This document shows, in pieces, positions 26,727 through 32,437 of a stretch of 64,000 nucleotides of DNA (position 1 is its first letter; every line of letters starts with the position of its first letter). The DNA comes from an uncultured Arthrobacter sp. (GTDB lineage Bacteria > Actinomycetota > Actinomycetes > Actinomycetales > Micrococcaceae). Position numbers and translations under genes: made by a program. The stretch spans positions 62,001 through 126,000 of the forward strand of contig NZ_CANLXP010000007.1 of the NCBI RefSeq assembly GCF_947495145.1, read 5' to 3'. The notes beneath the pieces are model-generated. The model saw only the letters and a list, made by a program, of their open reading frames with translations, searched no databases and had not been told where the DNA came from.

Positions 26727-27590
26727 TCATTTACTGGTCCCCCATGGCACATCCGTCCGGACGGCCGATGTTGATCGGTCCCGGCCGGAGAGGTCCTGAT
26801 GGGTTCGCACGGTTGTCCAGCACGGATGTGTCCCCAGAATCCTGGCCAGTGTCCCTGCCTGCACCTCCGCGTGTTCCATCACGAAGTAGCCGCCCGGCTT
26901 CAGGAGCCGGGCCGCGGCAGCTGCGGCGGCGAGCGGTAGGCGAAGCCCGTCGGCGCTTCCTCCGTAGAGTGCAAGTTCCGGATCGTGCTCAGCGACTTCG
27001 GGCTCGCGTGGAACGGCGCTCGTGGGGATATAGGGCGGATTGGAGGCGACGACGTCGAACGTTCCGTTGCGCTCTGCCAGCGCTTCCGCATAGTCCCCCT
27101 GAACGAGGGTGACACCGAGCGGCGCGAGATTGCGTTCCGCCCAGGCGTGAGCCAGGTCGCTCAGTTCCACTGCGTAGACGCACGCCTCGGGCACTTCCTG
27201 CGCAACCGACCCCGCGATGGCGCCGGACCCTGTGCCCAGGTCCGCCACGAGCGCGCGCTGCGTCAGCCGTGCTGCGTCGATGGCCAGTTGGGCCACGGTT
27301 TCGGTTTCGGGGCGGGGAATGAAAACCCCGGGCCCCACCGCAAGCTCCAGTCTTCGGAAATACGCGACTCCCGTGATGTGCTGAAGCGGTACCCGCTGAG
27401 ACCGTTCCGCAATCAGCTCGTTGTACCCCTCCGGCGCGGCGGCGCCGATCAGCGCAAGCGCCCGCACCCGGCCGACGCTTTCCCGCAGCAGGTGCGCAGC
27501 AAGAAGCTCCGCATCCGTCCTGGGGCTCGGTACCCCTGCCTCCGCCAGCACCGCCGCGGCCTTACGCAGAGCATCGGCCAGCGATTCCAT
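26727..27590 (-). CDS. prmC: release factor glutamine methyltransferase PrmC
   Basis: This 287-residue SAM-dependent enzyme methylates the Gln of the GGQ motif of RF1/RF2. Visible motifs are an N-terminal helical domain, ADLGTGSGAIAGSV (motif I) and VASNPPYIPTS (the NPPY substrate motif). It lies directly after prfA, whose product is its substrate, with a gap of 14 bp. The position between prfA and sua5 is conserved in actinobacteria. Confidence 0.92.
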   Translation of the reverse strand: MESLADALRKAAAVLAEAGVPSPRTDAELLAAHLLRESVGRVRALALIGAAAPEGYNELIAERSQRVPLQHITGVAYFRRLELAVGPGVFIPRPETETVAQLAIDAARLTQRALVADLGTGSGAIAGSVAQEVPEACVYAVELSDLAHAWAERNLAPLGVTLVQGDYAEALAERNGTFDVVASNPPYIPTSAVPREPEVAEHDPELALYGGSADGLRLPLAAAAAAARLLKPGGYFVMEHAEVQAGTLARILGTHPCWTTVRTHQDLSGRDRSTSAVRTDVPWGTSK

Positions 27591-27604
27591 AGTATTTCGC
27601 GTAC

Positions 27605-28690
27605 CTATGCGTCGTCGCCGATGGCGTCGAGGCGGGTCTGTTCGTCCAACTCGATCGCGGACTGGACGACCGGCTCCAGCTCGCCGTTCATCACGGCGTC
27701 GAGGTTGTAGGCTTTGTACCCGGTCCGGTGATCGGCGATCCGGTTCTCCGGGAAGTTGTACGTGCGGATGCGCTCTGAACGGTCCATGGTGCGCACCTGG
27801 GACTTGCGGATGTCCGAGTTGGCGGCGTCGATCTCTTCCTGCTTCGCAGCGAGGATGCGCGAGCGCAGCACGCGCATGGCTGCCTCGCGGTTCTGCAGCT
27901 GCGACTTCTCGTTCTGCATGGCGACCACGATGCCGGTCGGAAGGTGGGTGATGCGGACGGCCGAGTCGGTGGTGTTCACTGACTGCCCGCCCGGCCCGGA
28001 CGACCGGTAGACATCGATCTTGAGATCATTCTGGTTGATATCGACTTCTTCGGGTTCATCCACCTCGGGGAGCACCAGTACGCCCGCGGCGGACGTATGG
28101 ATACGCCCCTGCGACTCGGTAACCGGAACGCGCTGGACGCGGTGGACGCCGCCCTCGAACTTGAGCCGCGCGTAGACACCCTCGGCCGGGTCATTCGAGG
28201 ACCCCTTGATTGCCATCTGCACGTCCTTGTATCCGCCGAGATCTGACTCGTTGGCGGAAATGAGCTCTGTCTTCCAGCCGCGTGATTCTGCATACCGGGT
28301 GTACATCCGCAGGAGGTCACCGGCGAAGAGAGCAGCTTCGTCACCGCCTTCACCGCCCTTGACCTCGATGATGACGTTGCGGGCATCATTGGGATCACGC
28401 GGGATGAGCAGCCGGCGCAACCGTTCCTGTGCTACGGCCAGCTGCTCTTCAAGGTCAGGAATCTCCGCGGCGAATTCCGGGTCCTCGGCCATCTCACGGG
28501 CGGCTTCCAGGTCATCCTCAAGGGCCCGCCACCGTGTGTGCGCTTCAACGATGCCGCTGAGTTCCGCATACCGCCGGCCAAGCTTGCGTGCCAGTGACTG
28601 GTCAGCATGCACGGCCGGATCAGACAGCCGGACCTGCAGATCAGCGTGCTCGTCGAGCAGGCCCTGAATGGACTCAAACATGGCAGACAC
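27605..28690 (-). CDS. prfA: peptide chain release factor 1
   Basis: This 361-residue RF1 recognises UAA/UAG and releases the nascent chain. The GGQ loop is [17 protein letters not shown], followed by [13 protein letters not shown]. The codon-recognition tripeptide region reads [15 protein letters not shown], with PVT in place of the usual PxT/PAT of RF1. The start GTG at 28690 follows an AGAGG Shine-Dalgarno; an ATG three codons later would give MFESIQ. The 262-bp gap upstream holds a large structured element. Confidence 0.95.
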
Positions 28691-28779
28691 AACAACCTCT
28701 TTCGGCTCTTTCGAGCCAGTTTAGATTAGGACATTACTTTCGGCGCACCCCGCATGCGGGTAGGCGACTTAACTGAGGA

Positions 28780-28940
28780 GCCGCTTATATTGCCGGCCAG
28801 GGAGCGTTCGACGACTCCCGACCTTCGCAAGCTCAGGTCGGGGCCCTCGTCGTCTCTCTTAGCGCCCACTGGAGCTGAACGGTTTACGACGTGAGTCGTA
28901 AACCGTTCAGCGGAGGGGCGGGGCCGGCAATATAAGCGGC
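28780..28940. repeat. 161-bp structured inverted-repeat element between rho and prfA
   Basis: A perfect 19-bp inverted repeat (gccgcttatattgccggcc at 28780-28798, its complement at 28922-28940) encloses two further hairpins. One has an 8-bp stem, cccgacct/aggtcggg (28817-28824 and 28835-28842). The other has a perfect 17-bp stem at 28874-28890 and 28895-28911 with a GTGA loop, which is a GNRA tetraloop on the plus strand. The outer arm starts 12 nt after the rho stop. No T-tract and no coding sequence were found. It could be a MITE-like mobile repeat, a processing or attenuation structure in the rho-prfA transcript, or a small RNA. Confidence 0.75.
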
Positions 28941-28952
28941 GGAGGACCTTAG

Positions 28953-31112
<2,160 letters not shown>

Positions 31113-31462
31113 GAAGGATTCCTTCCCCCTCGTCGGGCGATCCATCTCTGATGTGGATCGCGGTTTGGTTTGCCCGCCGCCAAGTCAGAAGAGTTGGAAG
31201 CTAAGGTTCGGTGCTGACCGGATGCTCTCCGGCGTGGCCGAGCGTGCTGGAAACCTCAAACCCCGGTGCGTAGCAGTCACGATGTGACGAGCTGCCGCAT
31301 CAGGTTCCGGGAGGTTACACCTGAGATTGAGCCACTGCTGACACACAGGCAGTTTCACGACGGTCACAGAAGATGACGGCCAGATCAACAGAAGCACATC
31401 TGAATACGGAATTGCCCTCGTAAGACCGGTGCGTTATTAACGTCAACGATTCAAGCTGGCGA
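31113..31462. other. rho leader region, no gene
   Basis: The 350 bp between thrB (ending at 31463) and rho hold no credible coding sequence. On the minus strand a TTGACG lies at 31441-31446 with a poor -10 (TACGAG) about 18 bp on, a possible rho promoter. A small palindrome gtcac-gat-gtgac is at 31276-31288. A long leader is in keeping with the autoregulated rho genes of other bacteria, but no specific element is recognised. Confidence 0.35.
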
Positions 31463-32437
31463 TTACCGTTGGTGCACCTTCACTTTAGCACCTTCTGTGT
31501 CAACGTTCAGCCGTAGAACACGCCAATCAATACCTTCATCGATGCCGACGACGATGCGCTGCACCGCCGAGATGACAGAGGCAGCCTGGTCCTGTCCGAC
31601 GGCGAGTGTCATCACCGTGGGCCCGGCGCCCGAGATCACCGAGGCGAAGCCCTCCGATCGCAGTGCGCGCATCAGCGTGGCGCTGTGCAGCATGGCCTGG
31701 GCGCGGTAGTCCTGGTGCAGCAGGTCCCGGGTTCCGTCGAAAAGAAACTCCGGCGAGCTCGTCATGGCATGCACCAGAAGGGCAGCGCGGCCTGCGTTTG
31801 CTGAAGCGCTGTTGTGCGGAACAGAGGCGGGCAGGAGCGCACGCGCCGCCTCTGTCGAAAGCTCGCTCGCGGGGATTGCGACTACGGGAACCACATCCGG
31901 GTGCACCGGAAGATTGGTGCTCTGGAAAGCACGTCCCGTTTCCCAGGACACAGCCAGTGAACCCAGCAGCGCCGGAGCCACATTGTCCGGGTGCCCTTCG
32001 AGCGTCGAGCACAGCTGCAGGACGGCACGCGGGTCCATGCGGGCGGAGCCGGGAAGGAGCGCGTTGGCTGCCAGCACGGAAGAGACGATTGCCGCCGCCG
32101 AGGACCCGAGGCCCCGGCCGTGCGGAATGATGTTCCGCGTCTCGATCTCCAGCCCCGGGCTGCTGTAGCCTGCACGCTCGAGCGTGCCGAGAATTGTTGC
32201 TGCGACGAGGTGCGCCCCATCCCGCGGCAGGGTTTCTGCACCCTCACCGATGACCGTAACCGTCGTCGTACCGGAATCGGTGGTCCGGACAAGGACTGAG
32301 TCATATAGCGTCAGTGCCAGGCCGAGACTGTCGAAACCGGGGCCGAGGTTGGCGCTGGTTGCCGGAACTTCAACCAACACCTCCTGTCCCGAGGCGACCA
32401 CAGCCGCCGCTGGCATGGCCGGCGCTCCGCTAAGCAT
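31463..32437 (-). CDS. thrB: homoserine kinase
   Basis: This GHMP-family kinase phosphorylates homoserine to O-phosphohomoserine for threonine synthesis. Motifs are [18 protein letters not shown] at the N-terminus and the ATP-binding [12 protein letters not shown]. From ATG 32437 it is 324 residues, overlapping the thrC end by 8 bp; GGAGG lies 11 bp upstream. An in-frame ATG at 32461 is also possible, and the reading frame extends further upstream inside thrC. The order hom-thrC-thrB is the actinobacterial threonine operon. Confidence 0.9.

Follow-up and report, generated by a model that had tools for sequence, protein, structure and literature searches.

REP sequences are short and, by definition, extragenic, and Wolbachia carries palindromic elements similar to the RPE of Rickettsia. 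The RPE are 105–146 bp repeats that form a long stem-loop and occur both in intergenic regions and fused in frame within conserved protein genes (PMC2229807). They are reported to lose their repeat identity over time (PMC6649704). In nematomorph mitochondria, perfect inverted repeats lie in coding genes, where active maintenance has been suggested and template switching proposed (PMC6649704). Invading repetitive elements that form hairpins have been described from sponge mitochondria (PMC2800124), and Arthrobacter livingstonensis appears in a table of REP counts (PMC12306157).

Here we analyze a 161-bp palindromic element between rho and prfA in a 64,000-nucleotide stretch of DNA from an uncultured Arthrobacter sp. 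(referred to as the window). We consider it likely that the 161 bp comprise three nested layers, namely a terminator-like hairpin of rho, a worn copy of a repeat (E1) in the loop of this hairpin, and a second repeat (E2) within E1, with E1 being a passenger.

The hairpin between rho and prfA

The initial annotation described perfect 19-bp arms bounding 161 bp, an 8-bp and a 17-bp hairpin inside, an outer arm 12 nt from the rho stop, and rho and prfA as neighbors. All of these are found in the sequence, and the two genes are identified by their NCBIfam families (Table 1). The outer arms match at 19/19 positions, and the 17-bp stem is paired at 17/17 with a GTGA loop on the plus strand. In the sense of rho and prfA, the strand from 28955 to 28691 folds at -136.5 kcal/mol versus a shuffle mean of -91.1 (z -8.8), and 0/200 shuffles are as low, so the structure exceeds chance. 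The Rho protein of the window has 730 aa, with a long N-terminal part containing Arg/Asn/Asp repeats (DNRNDRDNR...), and this part differs from that of Rho in genome G036 (locus L006).

Table 1. Features of the rho–prfA region in window coordinates, listed in the direction of transcription.
Feature	Position	Strand	Basis
rho, transcription termination factor	28953..31145	-	NCBIfam TIGR00767, 628.8 bits
P1 5' arm, rho-proximal strand of the outer stem, terminator-like	28922..28940	-	perfect arms; hairpin similarly placed in relatives
E1 core 1, CCGCCCCTCC on the minus strand, contains consensus CGCCCCTNC	28912..28921	-	window versus E1 alignment
E1 inner hairpin P2, 17-bp perfect stem (28874-28890/28895-28911) and 4-nt loop	28874..28911	-	pairing; P2 in other copies
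E1 core 2 left half, probable remnant (TCCAGTGGGCG)	28863..28873	-	by hand; ortholog L012 retains AGGCCCG
E2 within E1 core 2, inverted relative to E1	28805..28862	+	shares TCGCAAGCTC, CCCTC and CTTAG with other copies
E2 stems; the second is the 8-bp hairpin (CCCGACCT/AGGTCGGG, read by hand)	28810-28815/28849-28854 and 28817-28824/28835-28842	+	
E1 core 2 right end, remnant (CTCCCT)	28799..28804	-	by hand versus E1 alignment
P1 3' arm of the outer stem, then weak tail TCCTCAGTTAAG on the minus strand	28780..28798	-	
TAAACT, putative -10 of a separate prfA promoter	28718..28723	-	TA(A/G)ACT in relatives; putative role
prfA, peptide chain release factor 1	27605..28690	-	NCBIfam TIGR00019, 480.2 bits; conserved start MFES at 28681

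We located rho in 36 of 38 genomes of the same genus and took 30 of the 36 loci into the comparison. Together with 17 loci from one other genus among the best family matches and six E1-bearing or E1-derived rho loci, they form a set of 53 distinct rho flanks, our own included. A perfect stem of at least 9 bp, beginning no more than 60 nt from the rho stop, is present in 49/53 flanks versus 0/53 shuffled ones (one shuffle each), the longest stem being an inner one in some flanks. Two loci of the same genus, L009 and L011, display a repeat-free 18-bp hairpin after rho with a loop of 4–5 nt. In L008, L012 and L013, a stem closely matching that of L009 and L011 (16 bp perfect) encloses 72–90 nt, and the loops of L008 and L013 hold a full E1. 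In the window, both arms are replaced (GCCGCTTATATTGCCGGCC versus TCGAGACATGCCGGCC), yet the pairing is still perfect, and we therefore read the stem as that of the rho hairpin, its pairing preserved while both arms changed. The outer 19-bp stem corresponds to the hairpin found behind rho in nearly every relative examined.

Like an intrinsic terminator, the outer stem is a GC-rich hairpin directly after the stop codon, with its place conserved in the same 49 flanks. Unlike an intrinsic terminator, it has a weak U-tract, and its loop is very long where E1 is present. The initial annotation had noted the lack of a T-tract, and we agree that no strong U-tract follows the outer stem in the window, the 12 nt 3' of the stem being TCCTCAGTTAAG. 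The mean number of T per 12 nt 3' of the stem is 2.7 in the 18 E1-filled rho flanks and 3.4 in the 35 others, a measure that is crude because the longest stem is sometimes an inner one. A scan for terminator-like sites lists none at the outer stem; it is blind to this stem because its loops are restricted to 3–8 nt, a range that the window loop exceeds. The tail after the stem is only weakly T-rich, which leaves termination at the rho hairpin putative; the 3' end of the rho transcript most likely lies at the outer stem.

Between the hairpin and prfA, we notice the motif TA(A/G)ACT in 37/47 loci, with 0.02 per locus expected by shuffling; the 10/47 loci without it include L009 and L011. The motif resembles a -10 promoter element. 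Its occurrence upstream of prfA suggests that prfA has a promoter of its own, with TA(A/G)ACT as the putative -10.

E1, a palindromic repeat of Micrococcaceae

E1 is composed, in order, of a site-specific stem P1, the core CGCCCCTNC, a variable hairpin P2, and the core TNCGRCAGGCCCGATGCCACTCCC. In 35 distinct copies it measures 106–109 nt with 18-nt arms, and both cores are near-invariant. The tip of P2 varies between copies, and the outer arm sequence differs from site to site; copies within genes have a common inner arm, GATGCCGCC or close to it. The alignment of the 35 copies has 87.1% of its stem cells paired. It contains 305 double-change cells versus a shuffle mean of 104 (0/500 shuffles reach it; slid controls ≤97), and its covariation is 0.593 versus 0.149 in shuffled and ≤0.148 in slid controls, where the shuffles take copies as independent and ignore kinship.

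With the loop filling of L039 as the query, matches were obtained in 19 of 24 chosen genomes from two genera (that of L039 among them), some at the rho site and some elsewhere. A covariance model of E1 (referred to as R1) matches 44/295 Micrococcaceae genomes in 8/32 genera at E<=0.001, some near-threshold matches being a short variant or partial. Copy numbers from this family scan are lower bounds, with 13 candidates scored per genome under stricter filters. In an order-wide draw of 396 genomes, R1 matches 10, all of them Micrococcaceae, and none outside this family. An exact-pattern scan of named genomes yielded at least 119 stretches, and 78 among the 80 matches listed carry the name Arthrobacter, Pseudarthrobacter or Paenarthrobacter. 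Arthrobacter is a member of Micrococcaceae, and the window is presumably from this family too. The pattern search with one mismatch did not outperform the reversed control in many genomes, and the counts leave it out.

Matches in a betaproteobacterial bin (L292) and a sphingomonad bin (L338) were rejected as chance, having the 19-base pattern alone without core 1 or stem. A plasmid or phage origin was likewise discarded, as no match came from one E1 copy queried against plasmids or from a second one queried against phages. A short subfamily, in which the inner hairpin is very small (about CGCCCGCTNCGCGGACGCCCGAAGCCGCTCCC), is seen in L176-L181, L183 and L184; it occupies other sites, among them a lipoyl-protein ORF (L177).

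The window copy matches R1 with E 3.8e-4 and 39.1 bits, and the model misaligns its 3' half; a second E1 copy in the same genome reaches E 4.1e-15. Given the low score and the misaligned 3' half, we base the identity of the window copy on core 1, P2, the ends and the orthologs. On these features, the loop of the rho hairpin appears to be filled by a worn copy of E1, a repeat dispersed in Micrococcaceae. In L039, L043, L050, L051 and L072, a AGGGGCGGGG-like stretch upstream could pair with core 1 CCCCGCCCCT, forming a hairpin exclusive with P1, and in L043 and L050 this hairpin stands alone after rho.

The initial annotation took its GNRA loop to favor an RNA read from the plus strand, should RNA be the active form. 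This loop is not conserved, because the P2 tip varies among copies, and E1 after rho lies on the minus (rho-sense) strand in 29/29 copies. Positions 27000 to 31500 of the window gave 0 Rfam matches at gathering thresholds. Across eight loci at E<=5, nothing credible appeared, and the two matches are to animal families only: one is to mir-598 and covers the L065 copy (E 0.58, 24 bits versus a gathering threshold of 69), the other is to bxd_5 at a different place. Neither a plus-strand RNA nor the structured small RNA proposed earlier is supported; for the latter, no Rfam family is matched, and copies occur in both orientations and inside proteins. A small RNA or riboswitch was rejected on the Rfam negatives together with the copies within genes.

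Sites, orientation and reading frame of E1

Six sites hold 177/183 of the collected distinct copies: after rho (29), after infB (54), the grpE-dnaJ gap (33), the N-terminus of cysD (25), the lipoyl acyltransferase gene (15) and jetB (21). Sites were assigned by protein motifs of our own choice, gene names were verified on one example each, and queries with rho, infB, cysD and the acyltransferase supplied part of the set. Where the loci were gathered by E1 itself, the six sites account for 35/37 copies (model scan) and 88/92 copies (pattern scan). Among the six copies outside the sites, L371 is an artefact, and dropping it leaves 182. L161, L162, L261 and one of the two L340 copies (poor stem) lie 0.8–1.0 kb from cysD; the other L340 copy likewise falls outside the six sites. 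A seventh site is possible in L162 (1286-2126), where an antisense E1 appears to be located towards the N-terminus of a cysH-like ORF.

A freely jumping element would not normally be expected to concentrate at six sites, and this counts against our best reading; the concentration could mean old insertions inherited with loss, or function. One alternative holds that each site preserves what is left of a few ancient events, passed on vertically and homogenized by gene conversion, in a family that no longer moves. The occupancy of the same six sites across genera fits such remnants, as does the P2 sequence, one of 133 distinct ones, that is common to the acyltransferase and jetB sites. On the other hand, E1 in cysD occurs in 16 sense and nine antisense copies, and in jetB in six sense and 15 antisense copies (judged by the neighboring jetC), so that at least two events per site are required. 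In the grpE-dnaJ gap, E1 takes either orientation, at times as an inverted pair, and L059 and L145 each have two inverted copies in a single intergenic region. We regard an origin by ancient events alone as very unlikely.

In the rho and infB flanks, E1 follows the sense of the gene in 83/83 copies, and all acyltransferase copies are sense. The single orientation at rho and infB is a second point against our best reading, since it would also be expected from a function at the mRNA level. E1 might accordingly be a cis-acting structured RNA (for attenuation, processing or stability) after rho, infB and grpE, setting their ratio to prfA, rbfA and dnaJ. Two-sided covariation in both stems and the near-invariant C-rich core are consistent with such an RNA, and in some relatives of genus g10 the upstream AGGGGCGGGG can pair with core 1 in a mutually exclusive hairpin (by eye). 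However, this core also occurs within protein genes (cysD, lipoyl acyltransferase, jetB) and in antisense copies, no Rfam family corresponds to it, and 251/295 family genomes have no R1 match at E<=0.001 with strict filters. A cis-acting RNA is unlikely on this evidence.

At the gene sites, judged from one example each, E1 locates between the lipoyl and E3-binding domains of the acyltransferase, ahead of the conserved domain of CysD, and near the C-terminus of JetB. The reading frame is stop-free across E1 in 59/61 gene-site copies. It stays open in 25/25 cysD and 13/15 acyltransferase copies, and in jetB a frame open 300 nt upstream continues across E1 in 21/21. The two out-of-frame acyltransferase copies come from L218, whose genome is 79% complete with 6% contamination, and from L317, on a MAG contig. 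Core length is 70 nt in 61/61 gene-site copies and 70–74 nt in 116 intergenic copies, one of which has 70, although core length alone is no proof of selection because the gene-site copies may form one subfamily.

The arms of the gene-site copies contain 88 double-change cells in 38 distinct arm pairs versus a maximum of 45 in 200 whole-arm shuffles; for the acyltransferase copies alone (seven distinct), arm covariation is within the shuffle range. Since paired arms are needless for a protein, our findings point to a DNA-level process that maintains arm complementarity. The retention of pairing through sequence change would be explained most simply by template-switch or gene-conversion correction between the arms.

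Empty sites bear on how the arms arose. The cysD locus of L249 is without the core and without both arms, and so at cysD the arms arrived together with the repeat. This locus, along with the inner arm common to gene-site copies, favors the idea that all 161 bp were transposed as a single MITE-like unit, which brought the outer stem along as its own terminal inverted repeats. At rho, this idea is weakened by the bare hairpins of L009 and L011, where arms occur without the core. The outer arm parts also have no common sequence between sites, unlike terminal repeats recognized by a transposase, and we find a MITE-like unit quite improbable.

Partial sites are found as well. Among 30 infB flanks, nine (L186, L191, L193, L195-L198, L210, L212) have an unrelated hairpin, L194 has a short hairpin only, which contains the 5' arm, and nothing but the 5' part is present in L190 and in L199, where it comprises the 5' arm with core 1. 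Among 30 acyltransferase loci, seven have E1, L220 has E1 split by E2, L238 and L243 have the 5' arm and core 1 alone, and L221 has the 5' arm alone, near-identical with one mismatch. These partial sites fit either 3' deletions or a 3' arm formed at insertion.

We tentatively speculate that E1 copies are 'structure-first' mobile palindromes, which enter hairpin loops or protein linkers, form the outer stem as an inverted copy of the flank, and are kept paired by template switching. The 5' arm alone in the element-free L194 and L221, and the 5' arm with core 1 in L199, L238 and L243, support this doubtful but conceivable route, although 3' deletions would look alike. If true, E1 would be a bacterial repeat with its conserved identity mainly in the unpaired core.

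Our best reading is that E1 is an RPE-like palindromic repeat, probably tolerated in the terminator loop, and neither a prfA regulator nor a small RNA. Its putative mobility is read from which orthologous sites carry it and which do not. E1 appears to behave as selfish or neutral palindromic DNA, sparing the stem when in a hairpin loop and nearly always keeping the frame in genes; it would thus have no regulatory job at rho beyond being carried in the terminator loop. Two proposals of the initial annotation each hold for one part of the element. A mobile repeat fits the inner part, whose core occurs at other loci, in related genera and in both orientations. A structure always at rho-prfA with compensatory changes fits the outer stem, present in nearly all flanks with both arms replaced between species. 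The mobile repeat and the conserved rho hairpin are layers of one locus, not alternatives.

The nested repeat E2 and comparison with described elements

E2 consists of a variable outer stem, TCCC, an inner stem, TCGCAAGCTC or close to it, CCCTC, and mostly CTTAG. Our search covered the loci gathered for E1 or its sites, so the counts say nothing of wider spread. In E1-related loci, we found eight distinct copies: five forward in E1 at one junction, two reversed in E1, and one alone (L367). The forward copies split E1 core 2 at this single junction in L171, L172, L174, L220 and L247, and by sight also in L173 and L203. The reversed copies are those of the window and its ortholog (L003/L012); TCGCAAGCTC occurs once in the window. 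By these sequence features, the E1 of the window is itself split by E2. In L007 of genome G013 (1850-2300), tandem E2-like units surround CCCAACCTTCGCTTCGCTCAGGTCGGGCCCCTCGCC upstream of an ORF, which presumably resembles thymidylate synthase.

For the window itself, the odd palindrome would be a terminator-like hairpin with passengers. E1 and E2 would make it testable how repeats move, how the arms of a palindrome co-evolve, and how proteins and terminators tolerate repeats. We found no published description of E1 in the accessible open-licence PMC literature, to which our search was limited.

Small palindromic repeats near genes are a likeness between E1 and REP, and REP scans such as that of PMC12306157, as far as its available part goes, may include some E1-type units. 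In contrast to REP, E1 combines a pair of nested stems with numerous intragenic copies, nearly all of the gene-site copies being in frame. It also differs from MITEs, as constant terminal inverted repeats are absent and the outer arms differ between sites. The coding palindromes of nematomorphs are likewise perfect inverted repeats inside genes, whereas they are mitochondrial, and the available part of PMC6649704 does not mention a shared core of a dispersed family. The sponge elements are, like E1, invading repeats defined by hairpin structure, although mitochondrial (PMC2800124, available part).

Set beside E1 by description, the RPE appear to be the nearest known kind. Both are palindromic, the length of E1 falls within the range of about 105–146 bp, and both are found in intergenic regions and in frame inside protein genes. 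Unlike the RPE, which reportedly lose repeat identity (PMC6649704, available part), E1 has stems that differ per site and yet remain paired. E1 also differs in its host, a high-GC actinobacterial family, in its nesting with a second repeat, and in its concentration at few genes. In the literature searched, Rickettsia is the source of the palindromic repeats described as read in frame in bacterial proteins (PMC2229807, available part), and E1 and E2 would represent a nested version of them in a free-living soil group, in the hairpins that follow rho and infB and within enzymes, CysD among them.
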